A stretch of 35,467 nt of DNA from a virus, in IMG/VR virus record IMGVR_UViG_3300034166_000229, positions 1-35,467 of that record, one strand, 5' to 3'. Positions 3,172 through 35,467 of the stretch are shown here, in pieces (positions within the stretch are counted from its first letter, which is position 1; every line of letters begins with the position of its first letter). The notes beneath the pieces were generated by a model that did no database searches, was not told the DNA's origin, and worked only from the letters and a program-made list of their open reading frames with translations. The position numbers were made by a program, and so were the translations under genes.

Positions 3172-3231
3172 GATATTTCTCTTTTCAGTTTGATTACGGA
3201 TAGGGGTACGCAGGGAGAACTCAACTCAACC

Positions 3232-3280
3232 TGATGCGGCTCCGCAATCAGCAACATTGCAGCGGCTCCGCTGAACAATG
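3232..3280 (-). promoter_or_regulatory. Two tandem hairpins in the protease-capsid spacer
   Basis: Two neighbouring dyads, 3232-3250 and 3255-3280, each centred on GCGGAGCCGC. The first is TGA-T-TGCGG-AG-CCGCA-TCA with one bulged base. The second is CATTG-TT-CAGCGG-AG-CCGCTG-CAATG with a 2-nt bulge. They occupy the only long spacer (122 bp) in the head genes and would lie in the capsid leader. There is no T-tract, so mRNA processing or stability is likelier than termination. I found no convincing promoter here. Confidence 0.55.
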
Positions 3281-3293
3281 CAGTACTAGAAGA

Positions 3294-5144: not shown

Positions 5145-5830
5145 CAGATCAACAACAATACTTCAGCATCGTCATCCAAGATGCTGAATGTGATCAAACC
5201 TGTTGCAGCGATGACCGCACCACCCAGCATGCTCGACCCGACAGCAGACACCAGACGTGGCTTCTTTGGTTCATTGATCTGAATCGGAATCTCTTTGGGC
5301 TTCGGTCTCGGCTTCGGTCTCGGCTGCGTGTAGGGCTGATAGCCCACACCGTCATCAACCGGTGGAGGTGCAGGAGGCGAAGCCTGTGCTGTAGCAGTGG
5401 CATCCAAACCACCAAGACTGGCCGCAGCGACCACATCTTTCTTGACCTTCGTTGTGGCAGTTGCGTCAAGCCCACCCAAAGTTGCCTCAGCAATCACATC
5501 CTTGGCAACCTTCGTCGTGGCAGAAGCATCAAGCTCACCCAAACTCGCCACCGCAACAGCAGCCTTCCTTGTCTTGGCCTGCGCAGCCGCAACCAAACCA
5601 CCCAACGCCGACGAAGCCACCGCCACCTTGACCACAGTTGCAGTGGCCGTACTTGCAAGGCCACCAAGAGTCGATGCCGCAGTTGCAACAGTTAGAAACT
5701 CGCCACCATCCAAGACTCGGTCACCGTCAAGAGCTGACGAGTCAAGAATGAACGCGGCACCACCATCAAGGCCGAAGCCTGTGTTGTCAAGTGTGGTTGA
5801 GTCGAGAACGAACCGTTGAACGGCCATCAC
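5144..5830 (-). CDS. Repeat-rich structural protein with LDSS motifs and a C-terminal hydrophobic segment
   Basis: 228 codons, family not recognised. Residues 6-41 carry two LDS-type units (FVLDSTTLDN, FILDSSALDGD). Residues about 47-150 are about five degenerate 22-25-residue repeats built on SLGGLDATATTKV-KKDVVAA. Then come a Pro-rich linker, a basic stretch with alternating RPKPRPKPK, and a hydrophobic segment near residues 195-218 (SSMLGGAVIAATGLITF) with an acidic end. The stop overlaps the protease start. Its place between the portal-side gene and the protease suggests a head-associated or decoration protein; the C-terminal helix could be membrane-seeking. The LDSS motif recurs in the minor tail protein at 27190. 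Confidence 0.72.
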   Translation of the reverse strand: MMAVQRFVLDSTTLDNTGFGLDGGAAFILDSSALDGDRVLDGGEFLTVATAASTLGGLASTATATVVKVAVASSALGGLVAAAQAKTRKAAVAVASLGELDASATTKVAKDVIAEATLGGLDATATTKVKKDVVAAASLGGLDATATAQASPPAPPPVDDGVGYQPYTQPRPKPRPKPKEIPIQINEPKKPRLVSAVGSSMLGGAVIAATGLITFSILDDDAEVLLLI

Positions 5831-5834
5831 AAAC

Positions 5835-6218
5835 CTATGAGGCGAGCGTCAACGAAGCGGTGAGATTGCCAGCGTCAATCGCATAGGTATCACCAGCATC
5901 ATACGGGTTCGCAGTAATCGTTCCAGAGAACAAGAAGTTGCCTGTCGTCAAACTATCCCAAGCTGTGAAATGATTGGCATCCTCAGACCCAGCAATGTTC
6001 GTCCAAGTCACATCGTCATCAGAAGTCAACACACCAGCCGAAGCCACCCCAAACGACACAGCCTTGCGTGTTGTCTCAGTTGCAGGGTTCGCAGTCCCAT
6101 TAGCACCAGGATCACCGACATGAAGTTTCACATACACCTGTGCAACAGCGAACGATGTGTTGTTGCCCAAAGCATTCAGCCAAGCGTTGCCAAGATATGC
6201 ACCGATTCCGTGTGCCAT
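5835..6218 (-). CDS. Small beta-rich virion protein (unnamed phage family)
   Basis: 127 codons. Segments YVKLHVGDPGANGTANPATE, TTRKAVSFGVASAG, FTAWDSLTTGNFLFSGT and a final Thr/Ala/Leu-rich strand match a small family common among siphovirus structural genes. I know the pattern but no proven role. No signal peptide or membrane segment. The ATG shares one base with the portal stop, so it is translated with the portal. A head decoration or minor tail role would fit the position. This is inference. Confidence 0.75.
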   Translation of the reverse strand: MAHGIGAYLGNAWLNALGNNTSFAVAQVYVKLHVGDPGANGTANPATETTRKAVSFGVASAGVLTSDDDVTWTNIAGSEDANHFTAWDSLTTGNFLFSGTITANPYDAGDTYAIDAGNLTASLTLAS

Positions 6219-9397: not shown

Positions 9398-9803
9398 TTT
9401 GGATCTTCACCTCCACGAAGCCAAGCCGCGCTCGATCAACAGGAGTAAATCCGAGCAGGGATAAACAATCTAACACCTGAGAATCCAACGCACGAAGAGC
9501 AGACCGATCACGCCAATCACCCTCACGCAAAACCTTCACACGCAGAGCAGCTCGCTCATCAATCTGCTCCGAAACAATCTGCAACAACTCAACATCCATC
9601 TGAGGGCTGATCCAAGTAAACCCAACATTCCACACACGCTCCCAAAACTGGCGACCAGCAGAACCCAACGGCCGATGCGGCTCAGGCGCAACAGCAGAAG
9701 TCGGAATCGCAATCACCACATCAGGCAACGGACGCTTCCCAGGATTCCCAGCCCGCCGCTTCTGCTCAACCGGCTTCGGAGGACGACCAACAGGCTTAGA
9801 CAT
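9318..9803 (-). CDS. terS: Terminase small subunit, P27 family
   Basis: 161 codons. The N-terminus GRPPKPVEQKRRAGNPGKRP is the clear P27-family signature (basic, probably unstructured). A helical body follows with APEPHRPLGSAGRQFWERVW. It would bind the packaging site and feed the large subunit. It overlaps the ParB-methyltransferase stop by 8 nt and the large-subunit start by 80 nt. With an HNH nuclease gene about 1.3 kb upstream in the same operon, the set resembles cos-type packaging in HK97-like phages. Confidence 0.92.
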   Translation of the reverse strand: MSKPVGRPPKPVEQKRRAGNPGKRPLPDVVIAIPTSAVAPEPHRPLGSAGRQFWERVWNVGFTWISPQMDVELLQIVSEQIDERAALRVKVLREGDWRDRSALRALDSQVLDCLSLLGFTPVDRARLGFVEVKIQNELEQFRERKAARRTDVVNVEEIRDF

Positions 9804-10992
9804 TGAGGAAGTCGTGAACCTTCCCAGACGACTCTAACACCGGCAGAACACCAGTGTGCTTCTGGTATCGGGCACAAATCACATCCACATAGTGCGGATC
9901 AAGTTCCATCAGGTAAGCGATGCGGTTTGTCTCTTGCGCTGCGATCAGGGTGCTACCTGAACCACCGAACAGATCAACGACCACGCAACCCTTGCCTGAC
10001 CAGCGTTCAATGATTTCAGCTATCAAAGCAATCGGCTTCTGCGTTGGATGCACTCGCTTCTCATTCTTTTCTTTTGCAGTAAATCCATTCCATAGGTAAC
10101 GCAACAGATCTTGTTTATGTTTAGTTGCAGACCAACAAAGTTCAAATCCACTCCCAAGAACCTTGTCACTTCCTTCATTACGTTTATCCCAAACCAACCA
10201 TGAGCCATCAAGGTCTTTATTGCTCAATGTTGCTCTGTAATAATTCGCACCCCACCAAAATTGTTCATCAACATCATTGAAGTATGTTCTAAGAAGTGAA
10301 GCATCAAATGGCTTATCATCACCGATCACTTTGGAATACTTGACACCCTTCACGGTTCTATCTGGCATTTGTGTGTAGTCGGTATTCAAATCAATTCCGT
10401 ATGGTGGATCAGTCAGAACGCAACCAGCCTTATTGCCTTTCATAAGTAGATCAAGATTGGCAACCACAAGACTGTCACCGCACATCACTCGATGCTTGCC
10501 TAGCAACCACACATCGCCCAACTTAGAAACAGCAGGCACATGCTCTGGAACATCATCGACATCAGTTGGCAACTCAATCTGCTCAACCCGATCCAACAAC
10601 TCCTGAACAGCTTTGTCATCCCAACCTGACGACTCCAGCAGACCAGGGTTCAGCGAGCCAACATCGTTGATCAAATCAGCCAACGCCTCTTCGTCATAGT
10701 CGCCAAGTTCTGCCGTTCGATTGTCGGCCAACGCAAACGCCTTAGACGTGACATCATCATCGTCAACCCACACCACCGCAATCTCATCCCAACCCAAAGC
10801 CTGCGCAGCTTGCAAAGTGTGGTTACCTGCAATGACCACGTTGTCAGACCGGCGAACCACGATGGGCTTTCGCTGGCCAAATGCGTCAAGGCTGCGCTTC
10901 ACCGCCTCGATGTCTCCACGTCGCGGATTGCCTGGGAGCAACTGCAACTGGTCGATGGCGAATGCAAGTGATGTGAGGTCGGCGGCGATCAT
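9796..10992 (-). CDS. ParB-like nuclease domain fused to a DNA methyltransferase
   Basis: 398 codons from the ATG at 10992. Reading further upstream in frame only overlaps the HNH gene and gives low-complexity sequence. Residues about 8-100 are ParB/Srx-like (LLPGNPRRGDIEAVKRSL, VIAGNHTLQAAQALGWDEI). The C-terminal half has the catalytic TDPPYGIDL motif IV before the SAM site DLFGGSGSTL, which is the beta-class order of N6-adenine or N4-cytosine methyltransferases, and VHPTQKPIAL. It likely methylates phage DNA; the target is unknown. It lies between HNH and terminase, so modification may be tied to packaging or protection from host restriction. Confidence 0.9.
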   Translation of the reverse strand: MIAADLTSLAFAIDQLQLLPGNPRRGDIEAVKRSLDAFGQRKPIVVRRSDNVVIAGNHTLQAAQALGWDEIAVVWVDDDDVTSKAFALADNRTAELGDYDEEALADLINDVGSLNPGLLESSGWDDKAVQELLDRVEQIELPTDVDDVPEHVPAVSKLGDVWLLGKHRVMCGDSLVVANLDLLMKGNKAGCVLTDPPYGIDLNTDYTQMPDRTVKGVKYSKVIGDDKPFDASLLRTYFNDVDEQFWWGANYYRATLSNKDLDGSWLVWDKRNEGSDKVLGSGFELCWSATKHKQDLLRYLWNGFTAKEKNEKRVHPTQKPIALIAEIIERWSGKGCVVVDLFGGSGSTLIAAQETNRIAYLMELDPHYVDVICARYQKHTGVLPVLESSGKVHDFLNV

Positions 10993-11074
10993 AGGAAACA
11001 CCCTAGTTTCGCGGGTGCGCGTCTTGCGCACGGCTTGGGGTCTTTCCCGCCTAGGGCTGCCCAAGACAAAGCCA

Positions 11075-11097
11075 CCCCCCGAGATGACGTGGGGGGG
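11075..11097 (-). terminator. GC-only hairpin just after the HNH gene
   Basis: C6 at 11075-11080 faces G7 at 11091-11097 round a 10-nt loop, starting 2 bases past the HNH stop. No T-run follows on the minus strand, so it is a weak terminator at best. It may instead stall polymerase or ribosomes, or mark a site for HNH or terminase. Confidence 0.4.
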
Positions 11098-11098
11098 T

Positions 11099-11404
11099 TC
11101 ATGTGGTCGGCCTTGGTTTGCCACGCGACGAATTGCATGAGCGGTGAGCTGCGAGAAGGATTGAGTCGTCTTCTGGGTAGATGTGGTCGGCAGTCCAAGG
11201 GTCGTCGGGTCTTGCGCCTTGGTTGCATATCCAGCAGATGGTGGCGTTGTCTCTGACCCATTTGGCTCGTTGTTGGTAGTTGCCTGAGTACTTTGTTCGC
11301 TTGCCTTTGGGGTGTTGCTGGTGCCAGACCACCTGGCACCCGTCGCATCTTCTTTGGTTTGATGTGAGTCGATGACAGTCAAGACATGGGCGTTGGATGG
11401 GCAT
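11099..11404 (-). CDS. HNH endonuclease
   Basis: 101 codons. Two zinc-knuckle pairs (CLDC, CDGC) open the protein. The HNH core is CWICNQGARPDDPWTADHIY, then AAHRSCNSSRG: the ADH histidine, the Asn of the last motif and two CxxC-type pairs are present. It nicks or cuts DNA using one metal ion. HNH proteins next to terminase in HK97-like phages are needed for cos cleavage and packaging, and this fits the position. The ATG has no visible Shine-Dalgarno; the upstream bases on the coding strand are a run of CCCACCC units, the complement of a G-quadruplex motif. Confidence 0.9.
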   Translation of the reverse strand: MPIQRPCLDCHRLTSNQRRCDGCQVVWHQQHPKGKRTKYSGNYQQRAKWVRDNATICWICNQGARPDDPWTADHIYPEDDSILLAAHRSCNSSRGKPRPTT

Positions 11405-11430: not shown

Positions 11431-13425
11431 TTACCAGAGTTCGTCGGGCATGATGTTGTCGTGATCAGGATTTGATTGGTCGTTGTCAGGCTCAGTACGG
11501 AACTGTGGTGTAACTACGTTACACACACTGGTTCCCTTGTACCCGTTGGGTTCTGTGGGGTGGTTCCCGAGGGTGGTTCCCGTGTTGAGGGGGTCTGGTG
11601 ATGGTAGTTGGCGGCATTGGACGGCTCGGGAGATTGTGGTTTTGCGGGCGAGTGTGATGCCTTGTTCTTTGGCTTGCCGGATGATTTCGTTGACTCCCAT
11701 GTGTGTTGGGTAGCCGAGGTCGTCTAGGCGTTTGGCTAGGGCTATCTCTTGGGTTGTAAAGCCTGTGCGTTCTTTGGTCTTCAGTCTGATGTTGATGATG
11801 TCATCAAAGTCTTCGACGATGAGGTCGATGTTGTCTGGTACCCAGCTGATGCGTGTGTGGGTGCGCTTCAGTCTGAGGCCGTCATCGGTCTTTATGAGTT
11901 GGAAGACGATGTCTACGTCATCGTTCTTGGCTGATGATCCTCGTTGACCTAACTTGGCGTTCTTGCCTGCGTGGTCGGTGCGCACACATGCTACGCCTCC
12001 TCGCTTGAGGGCTAGGCCTGTGGTGCGGGCGAACTCACGGTAGGAGTCAGCTGAGTTCTCTTCACCGTCAATGGCGCGTCCTGTGGTGTCTATCACCACG
12101 ACCTCAGCCTTGACCAGGTTGATGAGGTGCATGAGGGCTGAGGCACCTTCGGTGGTGTTAAGTGGTGGGAGTGAGGGGATGATGGCGTAGTGGAAGTGGG
12201 AGAGGTCGTCGTCTTCTGTGTAGCCGAATTGTTCTAGGCGTTCGTAGAGGTCGGACTCGATCATCTCATAATCCAAGTACAGGCAATGGACTGGTGGTTG
12301 TGCTGCTTGTCCGAGGATGGGTTTTCCTGTGGCTAAAGCTGCGACAGCATTCAAGGTGAGCCAAGATTTGCCTGTCTTAGCTCCGGCGAAGATGGCGGTC
12401 TGTCTGCCTCGGGCTATGAGTGGTTTGCAGATCCAGTCTTCTGTGGTGTGTTCTTGTGTCCAGAAGTCTTTCCAGTTGATGAGCATGTCAAGCATTTCGT
12501 CACCTGTTGGGATGGGGGTGACTGGTTCAAGTTTGCCTTCTGTGGTGGCTAGGTAGGCTTGGGCTGCTTGTTTCCAGTTGCCGTTGTGGTCTCGTGCTGC
12601 CATGTAGCCGAAGCGGTTGTATCCGCCTTCTGGTAGCCAAGGGATGGAGCTGGTGAAGACGATGAGTGCGTCGTTGCCGTTGTGGCCGATGGTGGCTGAG
12701 GTGCCGTCTCGTGGGTCTTTCCCTGGTCGAACCCAGTGTTGTTCGCCGTGTCGGTCTGTCTTGGCGAGTGTCCAGCCGTCTCGGGTGAGTAGGTCATCCC
12801 ATGTGGTTTGGGCGTTGTATCGGGCTGAGGGGGTGTTGGGATCGTTCAGGAACGTGTCTGGTTGGTCTTTGGGTGTGAACATTGCGGGTTGGCTGGTGAG
12901 GAGCGTTAGGAGCCACTGTGGTGCGTCTGCGGGCTTCCTGTCTGTGGGTGAATGGCCGTCTTCCCATTCGTACCGGCGGCCGTTGGGGTGCAAGGTTGGG
13001 TGGGCTAAGACTTGGCCGCCTTCACCACGAATGTCTAAGCCGACTCCTAGGCGTGAGCCTGCATCATTTCTAATCTCGACTGGCGCATAGAAGTACAGGT
13101 GACGGCCACCGGTGCCGGTGATTGCCTCCACCGTGTCTGGCAGCTTCCCATAGCGTTCTTGCAGGTCATGCAGCGTGTCTGACCCTCGGTACTGCTCACG
13201 ATCATCCACATCAACCACAAACACCTGCCCGTGCTGGGTGCGACCTGTCGCAATACCAATCCCGTAGGTGGCATACTCCCCACCCCACCAAGCCTTGATC
13301 GTGTCAACGTCTGTGGTCGCCTTAGTCTGCCAAGCCTCAATGCCAGGGTATTTGTGACCTGGTTTGATAGGGATAACCCTGATGCCCTTCTGGGCGTAGC
13401 TGAGCGCGATATCTAATGTGTTCAT
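11431..13425 (-). CDS. Bifunctional primase-polymerase / superfamily 4-like helicase
   Basis: 664 codons. Residues 1 to about 180 are an archaeo-eukaryotic-type prim-pol: VFVVDVDD at 68-75 has the metal-binding Asp pair, GTGGRHLYF at 104-112 has the catalytic His, and DIRGEGG at 131-137 follows. A linker domain (about 200-300) precedes a RepA/DnaB-like ATPase: Walker A GAKTGKS at 348-354, LYLDYEM near 382-388, Walker B VVVIDTTGR at 442-450, and a RTDHAGK motif. It would prime and unwind phage DNA, using host polymerase for bulk synthesis, since no DNA polymerase gene is seen. It is the core replication gene. ATG at 13425. Confidence 0.93.
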   Translation of the reverse strand: MNTLDIALSYAQKGIRVIPIKPGHKYPGIEAWQTKATTDVDTIKAWWGGEYATYGIGIATGRTQHGQVFVVDVDDREQYRGSDTLHDLQERYGKLPDTVEAITGTGGRHLYFYAPVEIRNDAGSRLGVGLDIRGEGGQVLAHPTLHPNGRRYEWEDGHSPTDRKPADAPQWLLTLLTSQPAMFTPKDQPDTFLNDPNTPSARYNAQTTWDDLLTRDGWTLAKTDRHGEQHWVRPGKDPRDGTSATIGHNGNDALIVFTSSIPWLPEGGYNRFGYMAARDHNGNWKQAAQAYLATTEGKLEPVTPIPTGDEMLDMLINWKDFWTQEHTTEDWICKPLIARGRQTAIFAGAKTGKSWLTLNAVAALATGKPILGQAAQPPVHCLYLDYEMIESDLYERLEQFGYTEDDDLSHFHYAIIPSLPPLNTTEGASALMHLINLVKAEVVVIDTTGRAIDGEENSADSYREFARTTGLALKRGGVACVRTDHAGKNAKLGQRGSSAKNDDVDIVFQLIKTDDGLRLKRTHTRISWVPDNIDLIVEDFDDIINIRLKTKERTGFTTQEIALAKRLDDLGYPTHMGVNEIIRQAKEQGITLARKTTISRAVQCRQLPSPDPLNTGTTLGNHPTEPNGYKGTSVCNVVTPQFRTEPDNDQSNPDHDNIMPDELW

Positions 13426-13443: not shown

Positions 13444-14862
13444 TTAGATGTTGAGAAGATGTTTGGCTATCCATTGGGCTACGGGTGACGCAACACCGTT
13501 GCCGCATTGTTTGTATCTGTGCGTGTCGGCTTGGGTGGTGCCGTCGGCTTTGGTGAGGGTGTGGTTGTCTGGCCATCCCATCAGCCGTTCACATTCAAGT
13601 GGGGTGAGTCGACGCACCGCCATCGTTGGTTCAGTGACTAGGTGTTCTCCTCGGCTTGATGGTACGCCTCCGTCACCGCCGGATCGCAATGTTGCAGCGA
13701 CTTCACTGCCAAGCAGTACACCTGTTGATTGTTTGGTTCCTGCACGAAGCGCATGATGCACCTCATTCGTGGTGTCGTTGTATTCATCGTAGGCAACGGC
13801 GTTCACGTGGGCTGAGGTAAGTGTTGCCATAGGGTCGCCATCGTTGCCGATGCCTAAGCCTTGACGGTTTTGTGCATCATATTTATCGGGGTCACGCAAA
13901 GCGTTTCGGGTGTCTATCGGATAGGCCACGCTCGGTGATTGTTGTGATGATTTCAAGGTTGGTGCCACATCTTCTGTCACATTGGCGTTGCTACCAAACT
14001 GGGTATTAAACGCCAGCAATGTTTCACTGCCACCACCTAAGTCACCACCGTTTGAACGGAGTGTTCCTACGCCTTCTTGATATTGCGCAAATGAGGATGA
14101 TGTAAAACATTCGTTCACCACCAGATCAGTCGCATCCTTGTAATCTCTTGCTTTAATTGCCGAAGCCGTGTCGTCGCTTATGTAGTCACCGAAGCCTCGC
14201 ATACGACTACCGATTCCAACGCTTGTTGAAGTCTTGATGGCAGCACTTTGCCTCTTCGGTTTGCTCTTCGCAAGATGCCCTGGCAAGCTTTCGGCGACAG
14301 GTAGTAGCGGGTTTGGACTTCGGTTGGCGAGGACAGGATCGAAGATAGCGATGACGAACACGCGCCTTCGTCGTTGGGGTACTCCGAAGTATTGTGCGTC
14401 CAGCACTGCCCATTCGATTGCCAACGCCCCTGCTTGAGCCATTTCGTTGAGGATGACCCCGAAGTCAGCACCTCCGTTGGAGTTGAGTGCCCCGACGACG
14501 TTTTCCCAAATAGAGATTCTTGGATATTGTCCATTAGTTTCCTCCTGTAGTTCTTTGATGATTCTGATGCCCTCGTGGAATAAGCCGGATCGGCCACCTT
14601 CTAAGCCTGCTCGTTTGCCTGCGACTGAGAGGTCTTGGCATGGCGAACCCCATGCAACGACATCAACGACTGTTGCGTTGGCAAGGATGTGTTTGCCTGT
14701 CAGCGTTGATACGTCATCCCATTTGGGGACATCAGGCCAATGACGATGCAGGATGCTGTTGGCGTGTTTGTCCCATTCACATTGGAACACTGTTTCCATG
14801 CCTGCGTTTTCTAAGCCCATGTCAAATCCGCCGACACCGCTGAAGAGGCTGAGTACTTTCAT
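13444..14862 (-). CDS. DNA (cytosine-5) methyltransferase, Dcm type
   Basis: 472 codons. Motif I is LFSGVGGFDMGLENAG (6-21); motif IV is GSPCQDLS with catalytic Cys75; motif VI is WENVV (119-123); motif VIII is QRRRRVF (163-169). Motifs IX and X are LTPLECERLMGWP and KQCGNGVASPVA at the end. The stretch between VIII and IX (about 210-410) is long and carries about six degenerate repeats of the form ATLRS/K-x(5-9)-VAY. It would put 5-methyl groups on phage DNA, most simply as protection from host restriction; no partner restriction enzyme is seen. The ATG overlaps the HTH gene stop by 4 nt. Confidence 0.95.
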   Translation of the reverse strand: MKVLSLFSGVGGFDMGLENAGMETVFQCEWDKHANSILHRHWPDVPKWDDVSTLTGKHILANATVVDVVAWGSPCQDLSVAGKRAGLEGGRSGLFHEGIRIIKELQEETNGQYPRISIWENVVGALNSNGGADFGVILNEMAQAGALAIEWAVLDAQYFGVPQRRRRVFVIAIFDPVLANRSPNPLLPVAESLPGHLAKSKPKRQSAAIKTSTSVGIGSRMRGFGDYISDDTASAIKARDYKDATDLVVNECFTSSSFAQYQEGVGTLRSNGGDLGGGSETLLAFNTQFGSNANVTEDVAPTLKSSQQSPSVAYPIDTRNALRDPDKYDAQNRQGLGIGNDGDPMATLTSAHVNAVAYDEYNDTTNEVHHALRAGTKQSTGVLLGSEVAATLRSGGDGGVPSSRGEHLVTEPTMAVRRLTPLECERLMGWPDNHTLTKADGTTQADTHRYKQCGNGVASPVAQWIAKHLLNI

Positions 14863-15342: not shown

Positions 15343-15436
15343 CGTCTTCAACTCCTCTATCTCCGCACAATGGTTTAGCAGGTATCGGCTGTCTGCACGG
15401 GCATGGGTTGAGTCGAGTGAGTCCAGGCAAGGTCAT
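15335..15436 (-). CDS. Possible 33-residue Cys-containing ORF
   Basis: The ATG at 15436 overlaps the PP-loop stop by 4 nt (ATGA) and the stop overlaps the next ORF by 8 nt, the same pattern as its neighbours. Product: MTLPGLTRLNPCPCRQPIPA, then a short segment with one more Cys, ending EDDD. It fills what would otherwise be an 80-bp gap. There is no clear Shine-Dalgarno, so it would depend on coupling. It may be chance. Confidence 0.3.
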   Translation of the reverse strand: MTLPGLTRLNPCPCRQPIPAKPLCGDRGVEDDD

Positions 15437-16224
15437 TTGATCTCATCCATAAAACATCCGCAACTTCCCCAATCGTCCTTGTCAAACATGGTTGGCTGAT
15501 CCTCTAGTCGTTCCCTGAATCGTCTCAAGGTCAGTGGTGTTGTCTTTCCATCTTTAGTTTCTTTCAACATTGCCACATCCTTGTTGAGGTAGTCACGACT
15601 CTTCTGTTCTTCGATTTCCCATTCAAGGAATCGAGGACGATTCCAATCCAGCAACATCTTCCAAGCTGCTTGGCCACCCCTGACACACGCACCGCCACAG
15701 TTGGCATGGCTGAAGCCGACTGAGTAGAGGCGTGGTGGTGTGATTCCCATTTTGTGATATTTATCTAGTAGGGCGGGTTTCTCTATGTATGGTTCACGCA
15801 TGAGTGGTGAGTCAATTTTGTAGGGAAGCCATAGTGGTTCTGCTCGGTTGTGCCGGTGTGGTTCTGTCCAGTCAAAGCCAAGGTAGATGATTGAGGTTGC
15901 TGGATCGCAGTTGTGTTTGATCCATTTGTTGAGTGCATCTCTTTTGAGTATTTGACTACAGACTGCAAGTCTGTCTGATGGTACGACTTTGCGGTCTCGT
16001 CCAACTTGGAGCGGGGTTCGTCCGTCTCTTATGGTTATCCATTCCCAGCGTGTGGAAAGGGCTTGCACTACGTCGTTGGCGAATCTCCAGTTGTCTTCAT
16101 CCTCGACCATTGTGTCTGCGGTAAGTAGGACAAGTCGGTCGTCAGGTTGTGCTAATTCTTGTACACGGAATGCAACTTCTGCTGAACCGATACCTGTCGA
16201 GAATTGGACACAGTGGAGCGTCAT
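15433..16224 (-). CDS. PP-loop ATPase, PAPS-reductase-like, with a Cys cluster
   Basis: 263 codons. FSTGIGSAEVAF at residues 8-19 fills the place of the SGGxxS pyrophosphate loop of PAPS reductase/QueC/DndC-type enzymes, and LLTADTMVEDED gives the next acidic strand. Later FSHANCGGACVRGGQ and the end WGSCGCFMD supply five cysteines that could bind an Fe-S cluster or metal. Such proteins adenylate a substrate; in phages they are usually labelled PAPS reductase without proof. It lies near the methyltransferases and nucleases, so a nucleic-acid modification role is possible. The first Gly of SGG is replaced by Thr, a mild deviation. Confidence 0.82.
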   Translation of the reverse strand: MTLHCVQFSTGIGSAEVAFRVQELAQPDDRLVLLTADTMVEDEDNWRFANDVVQALSTRWEWITIRDGRTPLQVGRDRKVVPSDRLAVCSQILKRDALNKWIKHNCDPATSIIYLGFDWTEPHRHNRAEPLWLPYKIDSPLMREPYIEKPALLDKYHKMGITPPRLYSVGFSHANCGGACVRGGQAAWKMLLDWNRPRFLEWEIEEQKSRDYLNKDVAMLKETKDGKTTPLTLRRFRERLEDQPTMFDKDDWGSCGCFMDEIK

Positions 16225-19450: not shown

Positions 19451-19816
19451 CTACTTCGGGGGTGTCACAGGGTTCAATTCGGCATCCACAACGGTCATCA
19501 ACTCAGCCCACAAACGGGCAGGCATAATCGCATACCAGTCATCCACATCCGTTGATCCACGCCGTTTCGCCAGAACACACCCAGTCCAAGCCTGAGCGTT
19601 ATCCATCTCCACATCCAACTCGCCAAGCCAACCAGGAATATCAATCGACTTGCAGTTCTTTACCTCAATGCAGACACCAGGAACACCGTCAATGTCGCCA
19701 CGATCATCCGTCCAACCGGCACGACTGCGCTCAGCATTCACCCAACCCCAAGTGCGCAACCACTTCGCCACAGCCAACTCAGCTGACGAACCCTTGCGCT
19801 TCTGTGGTGATGTCAT
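19451..19816 (-). CDS. Hjc-like Holliday junction resolvase / PD-(D/E)xK nuclease
   Basis: 121 codons. KRKGSSAELAVAKWLRTWGW carries the conserved Glu helix, DDRGDIDGVPGVCIEVKN carries the catalytic Asp and ExK, and AQAWTGCVLAKRRG gives a later strand. The order and size match archaeal-Hjc-type resolvases found in many phages. It would cut four-way junctions before packaging. ATG overlaps the WhiB stop by 4 nt. A restriction-like nuclease of the same fold is an alternative. Confidence 0.78.
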   Translation of the reverse strand: MTSPQKRKGSSAELAVAKWLRTWGWVNAERSRAGWTDDRGDIDGVPGVCIEVKNCKSIDIPGWLGELDVEMDNAQAWTGCVLAKRRGSTDVDDWYAIMPARLWAELMTVVDAELNPVTPPK

Positions 19817-20100
19817 ATTCTTCTCCTCGGCTTGTTCGGTTTCCTACGGCCACGCTCAACAGTAGTTGTCCCAGCCCACACACCATACTCCTCGTTATCT
19901 AACGCAAACTGCAAGCACGGTTTGCGCACAGGACACATCGCACAAATCTCTTTCGCTTTGCGTATAGATATTGATGAGCCTTCGTTGAAGAACAAGTCCA
20001 GCATCCCTCGACATCGGGCTTGATCTTGCCATTTTGGTCTGTCAGGTCTGAAGACTCCTTCGCCTTCAGACCACAAATCGACAACGTGTGCGTTGCTCAT
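19813..20100 (-). CDS. whiB: WhiB-family Fe-S transcription regulator
   Basis: 95 codons. Four cysteines in the WhiB pattern: Cys30 in QARCRGM, then ICAMCPVRKPC (CxxCx5C, residues 53, 56, 62). The GVWAGTT turn stands for the family G[VI]WGG motif, followed by a basic tail RGRRKPNKPRRR for DNA contact. WhiB proteins bind a 4Fe-4S cluster and are confined to Actinobacteria and their phages, so this is the best host marker in the genome. Phage copies can alter host cell division or exclude other phages. It overlaps its two neighbours by 4 nt each. Confidence 0.93.
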   Translation of the reverse strand: MSNAHVVDLWSEGEGVFRPDRPKWQDQARCRGMLDLFFNEGSSISIRKAKEICAMCPVRKPCLQFALDNEEYGVWAGTTTVERGRRKPNKPRRRI

Positions 20101-24127: not shown

Positions 24128-24291
24128 GACTTGTCTTCTTTCTTGGTTAGGACACCCACAAGATGAAGAGCCAAAGTTCCAACCGTCACCCAGATGGCAA
24201 GTTGCTGGGTGAACCCAGACAACGTGCCAATCGTGATGATGGATGCGCCGATAGTCCAGAGGAGTGCGTGAATCTCGCCCCAGAATCTCAT
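24124..24291 (-). CDS. 55-residue membrane protein before the holin
   Basis: MRFWGEIHALLWTIGASIIT and LSGFTQQLAIWVTVGTLALH: two hydrophobic helices, then VGVLTKKEDKS as a charged tail. ATGA overlaps at both ends tie it to the PA14-protein gene and the holin. Its size, topology and place fit an antiholin or second holin. No family recognised beyond that. Confidence 0.72.
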   Translation of the reverse strand: MRFWGEIHALLWTIGASIITIGTLSGFTQQLAIWVTVGTLALHLVGVLTKKEDKS

Positions 24292-25703
24292 TGTCGTCTC
24301 CGTAAAGTAGGCGCAGGACTTGCCGCTAATAGTACCGCACCCAACGCAACTAACGCACGACGCTCAGACACAGGGATGCGTGAATCGAACGGAACATAAC
24401 TATCGGCGAACCCTGAGAAGATATTCAACACCGATTCAAACGCTTGACGCACCGAAGGAGGTGCATCCTGCACCGCAGCCACCACCTCAGCAGCCTGCTC
24501 CACAGACAACTCATCCGTGCTGATCTCACTGAACAAAGCCTCAGCCTGAACGCTGCTGATGGCGGCAAGCACGGCAGGGCTGGAGACGAATGCGGCTGCT
24601 TGGCTGGTGTCAAGGTCTTTGGTGATGAGGTCGTCGACTAGCGCAACGATTTGTTCTTCGGTGGCTTCTGAGAGCTGTTCGATGACGGCATCAAACTGTT
24701 CTTCGGTCAAGGCTTCTTTCACGTCTGGTGGGGCTGGGATGGTCTGAGGTGGCGCAGGTACGGTGTCGGGGATTGGCAGCGTCTCGGGGGCTTGTGGCGC
24801 GTCTGGTGGGCTTGTGAAGTCAGGCAACGGTAGGGTTTCGGCTGGAGGAACAGTAGGGTTTGTCGCTGGAGGGTCTGATGGGATTGGTTCTGGAATTGGT
24901 TGTGTCTCTGGTGGTGTGGGTTCCGTATCTGGTGGTGCTGGCATCGTTGTGGGCGGTTGCTCAACCGTTGCAGGTGGCTGCGCTGGCGGTGGCGATACGG
25001 GTTCTGTACTGGTCGTGGTTGCAGGCACCGTCGAGGTGGTCGTCGTTGAAGTGGTGGATGTAGATGCTTGAGTGGTTGACGGTTCTAGCATGGTCGTCGT
25101 TGATTCTGTTGATGTTGTTTGGGGTACGGAAGAAGTAGATGCCTCAACCGTTGTGGACACATCAGTTGTCGTTGAGGCCACATGGCTAGTGCTGAAGGCT
25201 TCGTCCGGCACAATCTCCCAGCCTGCGTCATCAATGTTCCAAGCCAACATCAGGCATGCACCACCGCCGTTCTCGTACATCCACACCTCAAGTGGCAGAC
25301 TGCCAGGCTGAAGGCTGAGGTTCCCAGACTGCCAAGCCGAACAACCCTGATCAGTCCATGATCCCCAAGTATTGCCACCGATAGTTGCTTCACCACCATC
25401 ATCAGAAGCCAACATGAACTCAATGGTGGTGTGTTCTGGAATCATGATGAAGCCCGACAGATGCACCATGAACAGATCATCAGGACAACCCTCAACAGGT
25501 TCACCGTCATAGCTGCGATTTATATTGTTCTCAACCTCACTCGCACACAACGTATACAAACTCGTTGACTGCTGAGGCGGTATCTCGTCTACAACGTAGT
25601 AAGAGGCATCCAAGCCTTGAACCGCATCAGCACGAGCAACGAACGGAAAGAAACTTAGAACTACAGCAGGAAGAACTATCAGCCAGCGGGGTATGCGACC
25701 CAC
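24288..25703 (-). CDS. Secreted PA14-domain surface protein with Thr/Pro stalk and C-terminal anchor
   Basis: 471 codons from a GTG at 25703. Signal peptide: MGRIPRWLIVLPAVVLSFFP with an ARA cleavage site at 23-25. Residues about 30-170 form a PA14-type domain (GLDASYYVVDE, GFIMIPEHTTIEFMLASDDG, LEVWMYENGGGACLMLAW), a fold often binding glycans. Residues about 178-325 are a Thr/Ser then Pro-rich stalk. Then comes a helical domain (TEEQFDAVIEQLSEATEEQI and on) and a C-terminal ERRALVALGAVLLAA hydrophobic segment with an RRRQ tail. This is the design of a wall- or membrane-anchored surface protein, not of a tail fibre. It lies between tail fibre-type genes and the lysis genes. A role in host adhesion, superinfection exclusion or lysis timing is inference. 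Confidence 0.8.
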   Translation of the reverse strand: MGRIPRWLIVLPAVVLSFFPFVARADAVQGLDASYYVVDEIPPQQSTSLYTLCASEVENNINRSYDGEPVEGCPDDLFMVHLSGFIMIPEHTTIEFMLASDDGGEATIGGNTWGSWTDQGCSAWQSGNLSLQPGSLPLEVWMYENGGGACLMLAWNIDDAGWEIVPDEAFSTSHVASTTTDVSTTVEASTSSVPQTTSTESTTTMLEPSTTQASTSTTSTTTTSTVPATTTSTEPVSPPPAQPPATVEQPPTTMPAPPDTEPTPPETQPIPEPIPSDPPATNPTVPPAETLPLPDFTSPPDAPQAPETLPIPDTVPAPPQTIPAPPDVKEALTEEQFDAVIEQLSEATEEQIVALVDDLITKDLDTSQAAAFVSSPAVLAAISSVQAEALFSEISTDELSVEQAAEVVAAVQDAPPSVRQAFESVLNIFSGFADSYVPFDSRIPVSERRALVALGAVLLAASPAPTLRRRQ

Positions 25704-27189: not shown

Positions 27190-28443
27190 CTATTGTAGTC
27201 CAACGGTTGCATCGTCAAGTTGCGACGTGTCAAGTATAAACGGTGTGATCAAATCAATCTTGCCGAAGCCAATATTCACTTCATGTCTGGCAGGGCTGAG
27301 GCGATGTTGGATGGATTCGACAACCACATTCTGGGTGACGGTTAGCGGCACACCGCTAGTGAACACTCGGGTCACTGACAGGATGTCACCAATCTCCAAA
27401 GCTGCAATCTGTTCCTGTTGTGCAGCCGTCAACATGTTGACCAGCACCGAAGCCTCCGAGAACCTCACCTCCGGCTCACTGAACCTACCCACCAGATTCG
27501 TAGCCAAAGCCGACCCAGCCGCAGCTGTATCCAACGGGATGTCAGTCAACGAGAAAGTCTTGATGCCGTACTCGGTTTGGCTGGCCGTACCATTCGCCAC
27601 ACTCGACACCGTCCCACCAGATATCTGCACCGTTGCACGGTTCACCACCGTCTCAGCACCATAAATGTTTGACAACGACTGAATCGGAATAGCACCCTTC
27701 GCAGTACCACCAAGACTTGCCACAGCCGTCCCAAACGAAGTGGACACACGCGCATCAAAATTGATGTTCCCAGAACGGTCAGCAAACAAACGACCATCCT
27801 CAGCGAACTGCACAGCCTGCAAAGCAGCCAACGCATTCGTCGCATCCTCATAGGCAACAGACCCACACGTTGCGACACCAGTAGAGATCGAACGCAACGC
27901 TGTAGACCAAGCCACCTCACTCCTGTTCAGGATGGTGTTGACGCGGGCTGAGGTGAGTTCAGCCGATGGGGTGAATGCGGTGAGTGTCGTTTGTGATAGT
28001 TGGGCTAGGGCATCGACACCGAGGATGGTGGCGGTTGAGAGTTGTGGTTCGGCATAGTCGATGTTCAAGTCGAAGACGTAGCCTGAGAACATCGCAGCTG
28101 TTCCAGCGGTGCCACCGTACACCTGCACCTGGCGACGTGGAGCAATACCGAGATCACCCTGATACCAAGTCGAGTCGGTGTTGAGTGGGTCAAACTGGCG
28201 GCCTGAAGCCTGATCGTTCGCAACGATGTTCAAAGTTCCGGCGTTGAAAGTATCTAACTGGGTTTGACGGCCACGATTGATGTTGACCGCTTGCACATAT
28301 TCGGTGATGTCCACAAAGTCTGTTGAACCATCCAGCGTGTCACCGCCATCCAATGTTGATGAATCAAGTGTGAAAGCGTCAGCAAGAAAGCCGACATCCA
28401 ACAACACCTTGACCGTTTCCCCCCACTTCATAACCTTCGCCAT
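27190..28443 (-). CDS. Minor tail protein (417 residues) with LDSS motifs at both ends
   Basis: The N-terminus carries FTLDSSTLDGGDTLDGSTDF at residues 24-43 and the last 16 residues are FILDTSQLDDATVGLQ, the same motif as in the head-side protein at 5144-5830. The core is beta-rich with VDITEYVQAVNINRGRQTQL and a late SVTRVFTSGVPLTVTQNVVV, typical of proteins following the tape measure. It probably forms part of the tail tip. The start overlaps the tape-measure stop by 1 nt (position 28443). Inside it, near 27,925, the wobble-base preference of the codons changes sharply. Confidence 0.82.
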   Translation of the reverse strand: MAKVMKWGETVKVLLDVGFLADAFTLDSSTLDGGDTLDGSTDFVDITEYVQAVNINRGRQTQLDTFNAGTLNIVANDQASGRQFDPLNTDSTWYQGDLGIAPRRQVQVYGGTAGTAAMFSGYVFDLNIDYAEPQLSTATILGVDALAQLSQTTLTAFTPSAELTSARVNTILNRSEVAWSTALRSISTGVATCGSVAYEDATNALAALQAVQFAEDGRLFADRSGNINFDARVSTSFGTAVASLGGTAKGAIPIQSLSNIYGAETVVNRATVQISGGTVSSVANGTASQTEYGIKTFSLTDIPLDTAAAGSALATNLVGRFSEPEVRFSEASVLVNMLTAAQQEQIAALEIGDILSVTRVFTSGVPLTVTQNVVVESIQHRLSPARHEVNIGFGKIDLITPFILDTSQLDDATVGLQ

Positions 28444-30620
28444 CAGCCGAACGTTCCCGTAAACGGGTTCCCTCCATTGTTCCTAGCACGACGATTCAGA
28501 ATGTCCTGAATCTCCTGAGCCACCTGATCAGGACTAGACACCAACCCAGCATTCACCACCACATTTGTTTGACCACGATAGATGTCAGCCATGCCACCAC
28601 TAGCGTTGCCAGTCACCGTAGACCCGACAGTGCCGGTGAACTCTGACATCGGATTGTTCGCAGCAATCTTCGGATACAACTTCGCCAACTCACCCTGCTT
28701 CTCATTAGCATCATTCAAACGTTCCTGAGCGTCAGCTTCACGATCAATCGCATCAGCCACAGCCTCAGAAGCATCAGCCTGACGCTTCTTCGCATCATTG
28801 ACAAGATTCAACGCCTCCTCATAAGCCTTACTACCATCAGTCGCACCAGACACAGCCTCATTCAACAACTGCTGCTGATCCTTCAACTCACCAGTCGCAT
28901 CAGACTGATCATCAGTCGCATCCTTCAAAGCCAACTTCGCCTCAGCTAACGCAATCTCAGCCTCACGAATAGCCTGAGGAGAAGACTCAGGGTCTTTACG
29001 AACCTTCGCCAACTCCAACTCAGCATCCTTCACAGCGAACGTCGACTGCTCAATCCGATATCCAGCCCGCTCAACGCCACGCTGAGCCTTATCCAAAGCA
29101 ACCGCAGCCGCCTTAGCCTCAGGAGAATCAGCACCGAACCCAGCCGTGATCTGCGCCAAGTTAGCTTCCGCTGTGGCTAGATCAGAATCAGCCTGAGCCT
29201 TCGCCTCATTAGCCCGCTTGGAATCATTCTGCGCTTGAGTGAACGCCTTGGATGCTTTGGTTGAAGCCCGCATCGCATCCGTGTACTTCTCCAACTTCTG
29301 CTTCGCAGTTTCCACAGCCTTAGCCGCGCCAGTCGTTGACTTGGTCTTGTCATCCTCTTCCTCTTTGCCAGTCCGAATGACCTTGCCAACACGCTCAGCG
29401 TTCCGAACCTGCTGCTCAGTGGTTCGATTGCTAGAGAACTTCAACGCATCCAACTCCAACCGAGCAGTCCTGACACCATTCGCCAAATCTAAGAACAGTT
29501 GATCCGCACCAGCAAGTTGCTCATCAATACGGTCTCCTACGTTGCTGGCCGTAATACCAAGAGCAGCCGACTTGAACGCACCAGACACATTTCCTGAGAG
29601 AGCTGAAGCAACGATTCCAACCTGACCCAACTTCTCAAGAATGTCAGCCAAACTTCGGGCGAACTCAAGTGTTGCAATATAGGCAGACTTCATCACCGCA
29701 ATCGCTTGGATGCCGAAGTCGCCCATCGCAGCAATTGCAAACTCAAAGGATCGACCAAGACCCTTCTCGTCAAGGTTCTCAGCGAACGCTGTGATCGCAG
29801 GAACAATCCTGTCGTTGATGAATCCAACAAACTCTTTGAAGTAAGGCAACAAGACCAAACCGACTTCAGTTGCAGCGTCAGACAACGAAGCCTGCAAGAT
29901 GCGCATCTGGTTGGCGAAGCCTTCCGAGGTTCGAGCGAAGTCGCCCTGAGCCAGGTTCGTATCTTTCAGAATCAACGCATAGGCGGCTTGAGTCTTGGCT
30001 GTGATGTCAAGCGCACCCTTGCCGCTATACAACCCCAGAGTCCTTGCTTCTTCTTTCAAGCGAACATCGTTGATCGCAACACCAAATCTCTTCAACGGTT
30101 CTGTTTCACCAGACAAACCTGAACGCAATGCAATGATGGCATCTTCAATGCTGGTGTTGTTGAATGAAGCCAAGTCAGCAGCTAACTGAACCAATGTGAT
30201 TGACATGTTCGCAGCTTGACCCTCACCAATGCCGAAGGCTTGGATCAAGTTGCCGAACGTGCCTGATGCTTCCAACGCAGCTTGCTTCGTGATACCGAAT
30301 GAAGATGCTGAAGTCTTTGCGAAGTTATCAATGATGAACGCCGAGTTGCCGAACACCGTGTTCACCTTGGACTGGGACTCCTCAAGATTTGATGCCTGTT
30401 GCACCAATTTGAATGATGCCGCAGCAACCGCACCAGCCGCAGCAGTACCAGCAATCGCCATCGTCTTGAACGACGGGATCAGGTTCTTCAACGCTGAGCC
30501 AACACCCTTCTCTAGTTGACCACTCAACCCAGAGAAACTCTTGGCCATCTTTCCAATGCCAGTAGTCGCATCACCAATATCGGTAACAAACTTGACAACA
30601 AACGTGCGCTCACCAGCCAT
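28443..30620 (-). CDS. Tape measure protein
   Basis: 725 codons. Residues about 45-72 are hydrophobic (TMAIAGTAAAGAVAAASFKL). NLEESQSKVNTVFG and ALEASGTFGNLIQAFGIGEG follow, typical of the TMP N-terminal domain. The region about 400-650 is long Ala/Glu/Lys/Asp coiled coil (DSDLATAEANLAQITAGFG, ELEKVRK-like segments). At about 0.15 nm per residue it predicts a tail near 110 nm. It follows the tail chaperone as usual, but with the gp10-like and primase-like genes between. No lysozyme or peptidase motif seen inside. Confidence 0.94.
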   Translation of the reverse strand: MAGERTFVVKFVTDIGDATTGIGKMAKSFSGLSGQLEKGVGSALKNLIPSFKTMAIAGTAAAGAVAAASFKLVQQASNLEESQSKVNTVFGNSAFIIDNFAKTSASSFGITKQAALEASGTFGNLIQAFGIGEGQAANMSITLVQLAADLASFNNTSIEDAIIALRSGLSGETEPLKRFGVAINDVRLKEEARTLGLYSGKGALDITAKTQAAYALILKDTNLAQGDFARTSEGFANQMRILQASLSDAATEVGLVLLPYFKEFVGFINDRIVPAITAFAENLDEKGLGRSFEFAIAAMGDFGIQAIAVMKSAYIATLEFARSLADILEKLGQVGIVASALSGNVSGAFKSAALGITASNVGDRIDEQLAGADQLFLDLANGVRTARLELDALKFSSNRTTEQQVRNAERVGKVIRTGKEEEDDKTKSTTGAAKAVETAKQKLEKYTDAMRASTKASKAFTQAQNDSKRANEAKAQADSDLATAEANLAQITAGFGADSPEAKAAAVALDKAQRGVERAGYRIEQSTFAVKDAELELAKVRKDPESSPQAIREAEIALAEAKLALKDATDDQSDATGELKDQQQLLNEAVSGATDGSKAYEEALNLVNDAKKRQADASEAVADAIDREADAQERLNDANEKQGELAKLYPKIAANNPMSEFTGTVGSTVTGNASGGMADIYRGQTNVVVNAGLVSSPDQVAQEIQDILNRRARNNGGNPFTGTFG

Positions 30621-30629
30621 GCGCCGATT

Positions 30630-31334
30630 CTACTCGCCTGCCTCCAACCGCTGACGCAAAGCACGAAACTCTGTTGAAGCCGCCTTCCACTTCTCAGCAC
30701 CTTCCAAACCTGTCCACGACCAAACCTTTGCAGGTTCATTCCAGAATTGCTCAGTGAATAAATACGATTCATGTCGACGCGCACGAGGTTGACGAACCTG
30801 CCGAGACTGCACAGGCTTAGATTGCTCCACAACATCCCAACTGAAATCAGTATCCAACAACACGCCACGACCCTCATGAAACTCAAAGGTCTCACCAGGC
30901 GCATGCTGAGGAAGATAGAACAACCGTGCAGGATCTTTCGTCTGCGGGTCACCAACAAGATTCAACCGCTCATGCAACCCCTGCCACACAGCCCGCCACA
31001 ATGAAGCAGGCACACGCTCAGCCAAAGGCAACACCAAGTGATAGTGAGGATCATCATCACAATGCGAATACGTTGAATACGCAAACCACTCCAACCCATC
31101 AAGCCTTGCCTCACGGAACGACTCACCGTCCATGTCCACAACCAACGCCTCAATGAACCGCACATTACGGTTGCCACGAGTCGTGTCAGGGTAGTACTCA
31201 ACAGGAGACCACAAAGCCCCATCAGTCTTGGAAGCATTCTCCTCGTGGAACGCCAACAGCTCACGCAGCTGCTCCCAAGACGAAGCCAACGGCTTCGGCT
31301 CAATCGCCTTCACATTGCTAAACAGAACTGCCAT
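30630..31334 (-). CDS. Orphan primase-polymerase-like (AEP-type) protein within the tail operon
   Basis: 234 codons from the ATG at 31334, directly after AGGGAGGGAGGTAGTC, one of the strongest ribosome sites present. FIEALVVDMDGES at 60-72 has the Asp-x-Asp pair; YSTYSHCDDDPHYHLVLPL at 86-104 has the His-containing strand; KDPARLFYLP at 133-142 is the third signature. This order is that of prim-pol N-terminal domains of phage and plasmid replication proteins. No helicase or PriCT domain follows; the C-terminal third is basic (RQVRQPRARRHES) then Trp-rich. A separate prim-pol/helicase exists at 11431-13425. Alternatives: an inactive DNA-binding or Rep-derived protein. Confidence 0.72.
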   Translation of the reverse strand: MAVLFSNVKAIEPKPLASSWEQLRELLAFHEENASKTDGALWSPVEYYPDTTRGNRNVRFIEALVVDMDGESFREARLDGLEWFAYSTYSHCDDDPHYHLVLPLAERVPASLWRAVWQGLHERLNLVGDPQTKDPARLFYLPQHAPGETFEFHEGRGVLLDTDFSWDVVEQSKPVQSRQVRQPRARRHESYLFTEQFWNEPAKVWSWTGLEGAEKWKAASTEFRALRQRLEAGE

Positions 31335-31348
31335 GACTACCTCCCTCC

Positions 31349-31381
31349 CTGTCAGGGTAGCGGAATGACAGCCCGAGTCAA
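31349..31381 (-). promoter_or_regulatory. Candidate promoter with overlapping dyad ahead of the orphan primase-like gene
   Basis: TTGACT (31381-31376), 16-bp spacer, TACCCT (31359-31354) on the minus strand. A 6-bp inverted repeat, CTGTCA at 31349-31354 and TGACAG at 31366-31371, spans the spacer and -10, and could be an operator. The start would lie close to the ribosome site. The spacer is 50 bp, unusually wide for the tail block. A modest match only. Confidence 0.33.
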
Positions 31382-31384
31382 GTA

Positions 31385-31996
31385 TCAATCAGGGACGAAG
31401 GTGAGACCCTGATCCGTCATGTTGTAAACCCCACCAGCAGCCTGACGGGCTGCGGCTTCCTGCATCTTGGTGTCTTCTAACTTTTTCAGAACTCGGTCAA
31501 TCGCATCGAGATATTCTTTGGCAATATCCTTCTTGTGCTTCCTGACGGTAGGCCAGAAGAAGTAGCCCGACTTGCCTCGATGTCGAAGGAACTGCTGGGT
31601 CTTTGGGGTTCTGGCACCACCGAACTCAGCACCAAAGAACACGTCACCCCGAGTCACCTTGCGCTTGCGTTTACGGTTCGGACGGGACTTGGACACAAAG
31701 TTTGAACTACTTGAAAGAACTGCTGCTGGTAGAGAATTGAAAGTCCTAGCCTTCATTCCCTTCATGACCTCAGTTGCCTGACGGTTACGAGTGACCGAAC
31801 CTGCCTCAAACTTGGCGGCCACAACCAACAAATTGGCAATCGCAGTGGAAGCCTTGTTGGCTTCTTTCCTGAAGTTCTGATCGGATTTGGCTAGGTCACG
31901 AATGAACTGGGTGATGCCAACAATCTCAACACCGGTATTTCCAGCAGGTGTGAAACCGACCTGGCCTGCTCGACCGATTGCGTTGTTGATTGCCAT
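31385..31996 (-). CDS. HK97 gp10-like tail completion / neck protein
   Basis: 203 codons. VGITQFIRDLAKSDQNFRKE is the typical first helix; VVAAKFEAGSVTRN and a very basic stretch (SRPNRKRKRKVTRGD) follow; QFLRHRGKSGYFFWPTVRKH and an ending helix close the fold. In HK97-like phages such proteins complete the head-tail joint. It is placed after the tail chaperone rather than beside the gp6-like connector, a moved position. Start ATG at 31996, 10 bases after the frameshifted chaperone ends. Confidence 0.72.
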   Translation of the reverse strand: MAINNAIGRAGQVGFTPAGNTGVEIVGITQFIRDLAKSDQNFRKEANKASTAIANLLVVAAKFEAGSVTRNRQATEVMKGMKARTFNSLPAAVLSSSSNFVSKSRPNRKRKRKVTRGDVFFGAEFGGARTPKTQQFLRHRGKSGYFFWPTVRKHKKDIAKEYLDAIDRVLKKLEDTKMQEAAARQAAGGVYNMTDQGLTFVPD

Positions 31997-35283: not shown

Positions 35284-35467
35284 CAGTCCCATCCGAGTGT
35301 TCGTCGTCTGCCCAAGTCCCAAGCCCCCGCATCTGGTATCCCTGACCGCCATCGCAAGTCGTGGAGATTGCTGTTGTCTGCGAAGCTGCGGTTGTTCTTC
35401 TCGCCAAACGCAGGGTTCGCCTTGAGCGTTGACGAATTATCATGCTCAACTTCAGCATCCGAAACCA
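35283..35467 (-). CDS. Family 2 glycosyltransferase, 3' part (continuation across the origin)
   Basis: In the right-end copy the same frame continues from the 127-base overlap and ends at a TGA at 35285-35283, with C-terminal residues DAGAWDLGRRRTLGWD. The TGA shares its A with the ATG of the GT17 gene (TGATG), typical of translational coupling. The frame stays open on both sides of the join, which supports both the gene call and circularity. It must be joined to the 1-602 part to describe the whole protein. Confidence 0.82.
   Translation of the reverse strand, partial: VSDAEVEHDNSSTLKANPAFGEKNNRSFADNSNLHDLRWRSGIPDAGAWDLGRRRTLGWD
35341..35467. repeat. Terminal direct repeat, right copy
   Basis: Second copy of bases 1-127. 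It holds the 3' half of the GT2 glycosyltransferase that starts at 602. Trimming this copy and joining 35340 to 1 restores the gene intact. Confidence 0.93.

Follow-up and report, generated by a model that had tools for sequence, protein, structure and literature searches.

The tail operon of the lake-actinobacterium phage analyzed here carries a gene for a stand-alone nucleotidyltransferase of the archaeo-eukaryotic primase (AEP) type, and the reading we favor, at roughly even odds, is that its product is an accessory polymerase, which is made from a host-type promoter of its own and acts on phage DNA that is single-stranded or gapped, alongside whatever replication system is present. The gene occupies positions 30630 to 31334 of the stretch of DNA under study (35,467 nucleotides, here called the window) and encodes 234 residues, with its ATG at 31334 and its stop codon at 30632 to 30630. 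The sequence-only reading that preceded this work had these coordinates right; the strand is minus. A raw list of open reading frames gives a TTG-started frame of 252 residues that is longer only at its 5′ end, and we set the start at 31334 because the ribosome site lies there and orthologue conservation begins there. The match to phrog_9765, orthologue alignments, the AlphaFold2 model, and dN/dS together divide the protein into a catalytic domain (approximately residues 1 to 165) and a variable tail (166 to 234).

A perfect direct terminal repeat of 127 bp (1 to 127 and 35341 to 35467) suggests that the window is a complete genome, 35,340 bp long, with almost every gene on the minus strand. 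A WhiB transcription factor gene (19813 to 20100; Pfam 2.1e-19) marks it as an actinophage, and among phage records the capsid comes closest to that of Pontimonas phage phiPsal1, whose major capsid protein is 42% identical. The AEP gene does lie, as had been proposed, between neck and tape-measure genes. On its 5′ side is a tail-completion (HK97 gp10-like) gene (31385 to 31996, minus strand), recognized by a weak phrog_5 match (0.0022) and placed in type A by comparing gp10 clusters with AEP presence; on its 3′ side is the tape-measure gene (28443 to 30620, minus strand), recognized by phrog tape-measure matches and bearing the type A N-terminus MAGERTFVVKF, whose ATG follows the AEP stop after 9 nt.

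Stand-alone AEPs outside replication modules are, to our knowledge, few (CRISPR-associated Prim-Pol, Thermus Ppol), and a search of the literature, in a library that is itself incomplete, found no description of a tail-operon AEP gene of this kind. The gene combines a fixed genomic address, its own predicted promoter, at least four diverged groups, and close relatives that do without it. This natural comparison between phages with and without the gene makes a phage AEP role separate from replication directly testable.

Family assignment, motifs and predicted fold

Searched against a phage profile library, the protein matches phrog_9765 (annotated as DNA primase; E 2e-16) and phrog_256 (DNA helicase; 2.6e-7), and both profiles are likewise matched by 20/20 members of a diverse orthologue set. 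The protein had zero matches when searched against Pfam, NCBIfam, PADLOC, and PDB sequences. A pattern scan of genome contigs returned 22 matches, none of them a relative, and scanning with the Vibrio primase instead brought up no viral relative. By tblastn, the protein is ~24 to 32% identical to the AEP portion of phage primase/helicases.

Three AEP signatures follow one another in the protein: ALVVDMDG (residues 63 to 70), PHYHLVLPL (96 to 104), and GDPQTKDPARLFYLP (128 to 142). Their presence, already noticed in the sequence-only reading, is thus beyond chance, as the phrog_9765 match and the 20 matching orthologues attest. Across 20 orthologues, the others of which range from 93% down to 36% identity with the window protein, D67, D69, H99, D129, and R137 are invariant, as expected of the Asp pair and His on which the assignment had been made to depend. 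We compared these positions with published AEP motif definitions (I, hhhDhD/E; II, sxH; III, hD/E; IV, a conserved Arg; PMC5862659). Motif I fits, D67 and D69 being invariant in groups A1, A2, and A3, and motif II fits with an H99 that is invariant throughout the tail-operon family. More distant phage primases outside this family have Arg at the H99 position; Arg or Lys in place of the motif II His is known from the DR0530-like family (PMC5862659). Motif III fits with D129, which is invariant in all distant relatives aligned as well and, from the alignment, would be the third metal ligand. For motif IV, R137 followed by Leu or Ile is invariant in the orthologues and may correspond to the conserved Arg (Rh) downstream of motif III in the PrimPol-PV1 supergroup.

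The AlphaFold2 model has a mean pLDDT of 71, rising to 81 to 89 over residues 51 to 120, and is unreliable over residues 167 to 195. Its best fold match in the PDB is the AEP domain of cyanophage S-2L PrimPol (6zp9; Z 9.6, rmsd 3.6 over 138 residues; Foldseek E 6.5e-5), followed at Z 5 to 7 by RepB', PriS, Prim-PolC, CAPP, and LigD-Pol, so the check by structure prediction also returned an AEP fold. The nearest solved structures, S-2L PrimPol among them, share only ~14% identity with the window protein. One unrelated-looking entry in the VIA list, 2atz (Z 7.7), falls under the tool's "common arrangement" level and was set aside. In a library of viral structures (BFVD), the top match is a 58%-identical uncharacterized protein, and phage primases and helicase-primases come next. 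By sequence, motifs, and predicted fold, we therefore assign the 234-residue protein to the AEP superfamily.

The catalytic part is under strong purifying selection, with dN/dS of 0.05 to 0.20 over residues 1 to 160 compared to 0.1 to 0.85 in the tail. The tail is short and is modeled with one long helix (213 to 232) at low confidence, and a helix-bundle (PriCT/HBD) domain is not visible in the protein, for which Pfam is silent even over the AEP part. In NrS-1 and ORF904, de novo priming needs the helix-bundle domain (PMC8718748). Because no such domain is visible here, de novo priming is doubtful, and the primase identity proposed earlier holds for the AEP-type domain and its conserved catalytic residues, whereas the strict label of primase is uncertain. 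Polymerase activity would be a safer guess than priming. The protein also has no C-terminal helicase domain, ending ~70 residues past the catalytic domain, and is not a helicase-fused phage primase. It is a stand-alone and probably catalytic protein, without a helicase or a visible helix-bundle domain.

The closest parallels in other phages differ from the window protein in build and in address. The primase/helicases that match phrog_9765 and phrog_256, such as Corynebacterium phage Adelaide gp43 and that of Streptococcus phage 315.6, have a homologous catalytic domain of ~110 to 140 residues with the same motif order; however, they are ~790 to 805 residues long, are encoded next to genes for Pol A and a helicase, and carry the Arg at the H99 position, whereas the window gene encodes the catalytic domain alone and sits in a tail operon. 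Free-standing primases of the same AEP sequence family occur in Vibrio phage henriette 12B8 (308 residues) and phage C48C1 (314 residues), but these are ~75 to 80 residues longer than the window protein, are encoded among replication genes, and have Arg in motif II. Within the 36%-identity orthologue group (L239 at 5391 to 6113, L303, L324, L329, and L333), we observed a conserved C-terminal CxC-x5-C-x2-C cluster, possibly a zinc site, which is missing from the window protein.

A predicted promoter and the timing of expression

Between the tail-completion gene and the AEP gene lies a predicted promoter, TTGACT-N16-TACCCT, at 31354 to 31381 on the minus strand (−35 at 31381 to 31376, −10 at 31359 to 31354). 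A −35/−10 pair resembling TTGAC-N16-TANNNT is found just 5′ of the gene in every orthologue group, with −10 variants TAGGGT, TAACCT, or TAGCCT in other groups; the 36%-identity group has TAGACA or TTGATT-N17-TANNNT, the −10 element ending ~7 nt upstream of the ATG. The two top promoter scores are reached by 50 of 54 non-redundant upstream regions, at a fixed spacing, compared to ~3% of shuffles, and the upstream regions of four neighboring tail genes, taken as a control, are without such a signal. In four AEP-bearing genomes (G029, G041, G044, and G046), no consensus-like promoter apart from this one was found in the intergenic DNA of the main strand, and in G049 there are three, this one included; the scan bypassed the site in the window, where the gene call used the longer TTG start. 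A loose promoter pattern is no more frequent in the window alone than expected by chance, so the evidence for this promoter is comparative. It nevertheless points to a conserved sigma-70-type promoter of the gene's own in all clades.

The Shine-Dalgarno sequence GGGAGGGAGGT (31339 to 31349, minus strand), identified from the sequence and its orthologues, ends 4 nt upstream of the AEP ATG. The very strong ribosome site reported earlier is accordingly real in the window's clade, where it is kept, but is missing in the 36%-identity clade, which looks leaderless. A palindrome (CTACC..GGTAG) over the −10 element and the ribosome site was considered and rejected; it is inconsistent between clades and may just reflect TACCCT facing AGGGAGG.

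The predicted promoter leaves the earlier description of the gene as late-expressed without support, and being placed in a late operon is no proof that a gene is expressed late. Perhaps the gene is separately expressed and acts early. Under the reading of an accessory polymerase, host RNA polymerase would transcribe the gene from this promoter soon after DNA entry, and not solely within the late tail transcript. The product would then be a small DNA polymerase in an auxiliary role, acting where phage DNA is single-stranded or gapped, with gap filling, primer extension, or restart as candidate tasks beside the phage's own or borrowed replication machinery. No terminator-like site was found in the 9 nt between the AEP stop and the tape-measure ATG, so the promoter would also transcribe the tape-measure gene and might be a secondary promoter for the tail. 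With a predicted promoter of its own and no terminator, the gene is moron-like but is not classed as a moron.

A moron-like slot could also house a function in competitor exclusion, in which the polymerase intercepts incoming foreign DNA. The own predicted promoter, the optional presence of the gene, its independence of the replication module, and its location in a structural operon all agree with this idea, and there are precedents: the moron Tab has its own promoter within a late operon (PMC10884400), and loss of Thermus Ppol raises transformation 100- to 1000-fold while replication of its own element is unaffected (PMC7693054). The Ppol of Thermus thermophilus ICETh2 resembles the window protein as an AEP of a mobile element that the element does not need for its replication (PMC7693054), but its gene is accompanied by one for a helicase, it affects the uptake of DNA, and it lies outside any phage tail operon. 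Against such a role, we noticed no integrase in the window, and the relative phiPsal1 is lytic according to its authors (PMC6106888), so there is perhaps no lysogen to protect; moreover, PADLOC is silent, and a partner nuclease or Argonaute does not adjoin the gene. We consider competitor exclusion rather unlikely.

Replication-module context

The window has, in addition, a full prim-pol/AAA helicase in its replication module (11431 to 13425, minus strand; Pfam Prim-Pol 3.6e-43, AAA_25 7.5e-22), which bears out the earlier statement that the tail-operon protein lacks a helicase part and coexists with a complete prim-pol/helicase. Pairwise similarity between the two proteins is undetectable, and the prim-pol/helicase is, by this comparison and its Pfam match, of a different AEP type. 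The two genes occur together in G001, G002, G004, G029, G046, and G050. The pairing highlighted in the sequence-only reading thus holds for the window but is not general: in five AEP-bearing genomes of ~34 kb (G041 to G045, the L239 type), a prim-pol/helicase, a DnaG zinc ribbon, DnaB, and Pol A were not found, and the AEP is the only primase/polymerase detected among those tested for, although many of the contigs compared are fragments, in which a missing polymerase is no proof of absence. G041 encodes an SSB, a Sak-type annealing protein, and an HTH initiator-like protein, and the same kind of SSB/annealing genes occurs in G053, which has no AEP. The AEP gene is therefore independent of the type of replication module. 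Another gene of the L239-type phage G041 (L343, 7064 to 7729) encodes a Mom-family DNA-modification protein (Pfam 2.5e-39).

The protein could also be a back-up replication primase or polymerase, starting a second replication mode or replacing the host primase. Such a role would suit the homologues that other phages encode next to Pol A and helicase genes, as well as the L239-type genomes just described. AEP-less relatives whose SSB module is of a similar kind, the AEP gene's occurrence in phages that already have a prim-pol/helicase, and the lack of a visible helix-bundle domain weigh against it, and we regard it as unlikely. The idea that the AEP is the phage's replication primase out of order was rejected as the main reading, since the gene is found together with a full prim-pol/helicase and since the other replication module is shared by phages that have no AEP.

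Linkage to tail-completion and tape-measure types

The search for the same gene beside tape-measure genes of other phages was productive. Of the loci fetched, 182 have the AEP gene immediately 5′ of the tape measure, compared to 32 in which gp10 and the tape measure are ~4 nt apart without it (some contigs were fetched more than once), and nearly all placeable relatives share this address. With type A gp10, the AEP gene is present in 227 loci with only two exceptions, L250 and L271; with type B, it is absent in 53/53. The L250 contig is cut just after gp10. An inverted AEP gene in L271 was rejected, as the contig is chimeric; its two inverted gp10 copies (2387 to 5945) are ~79% identical, and the arrangement is probably an assembly product. 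The tape-measure N-termini differ as well, reading xFxV[KR]F with the AEP gene and MA[VI]I[IVF]PI[LT][ST]TF without it.

The gene is missing from relatives of the window phage, namely phiPsal1, L110, and G053, and hence is dispensable for such a phage plan. phiPsal1 (MG835450) has the structural gene order of the window, but there the tape-measure gene comes immediately after the gene in the tail-completion slot. No cultured phage carrying the AEP gene was found. AEP-less relatives show a gap of ~4 nt at the slot, but the flanking gp10 and tape-measure N-terminus are of the other type. In phage 80alpha, the end of the DNA is capped by the tail-completion protein, which also pairs physically with the tape-measure N-termini (PMC11661146). 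Contact of this kind would explain the joint swap of gp10 and the tape-measure N-terminus, and a gene lying between two co-swapped genes would be carried along by its position, barring a function in the tail. Position most simply explains the linkage to one tail-completion/tape-measure type. AEP distances correlate with those of the neighboring gp10 (r 0.90) and weakly with those of the tape-measure N-terminus (r 0.45), which shuffles.

If the tail-completion protein, the AEP, and the tape-measure N-terminus instead form a stable tail-operon block, the AEP might be an immediate-early or even virion-delivered polymerase, which we think quite unlikely. It would be made first, from the main host-type promoter, and would act at entry on the genome end or on gaps; if true, it would be a replication-module-independent polymerase of abundant freshwater actinophages. 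An enzyme carried in the tail or neck and working on the end of the genome or on gaps while the DNA is ejected would make the linkage to type A gp10 functional, and the 80alpha tail-completion protein at the DNA end lends this some appeal. The linkage already follows from the position between two co-swapped genes, however, a promoter of its own is unexpected for a tail part, and the AEP tracks gp10 far more closely than the tape-measure N-terminus, which leaves such a virion-associated enzyme decidedly improbable. Loss of catalysis, with the fold repurposed as a nucleic-acid binder, regulator, or the decoy once suggested, would suit the variable C-terminal part but is highly improbable in view of the invariance of all four motif positions and the selection on the catalytic part.

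Several other genes of the window drew attention in passing. Adjoining the terminase genes is a ParB-like/N6-N4 methyltransferase fusion (9796 to 11382), and a C5-cytosine methyltransferase (13444 to 14862) has its conserved N-terminal match split by a long, repetitive-looking middle. A 263-residue protein (15433 to 16224), for which Pfam is silent at 0.01, has a C-terminal Cys cluster that by eye is PAPS-reductase-like. Between the lysis and tail genes, the product of 24288 to 25703 combines a weak PA14-domain match with a long Ser/Thr/Pro-rich stretch.
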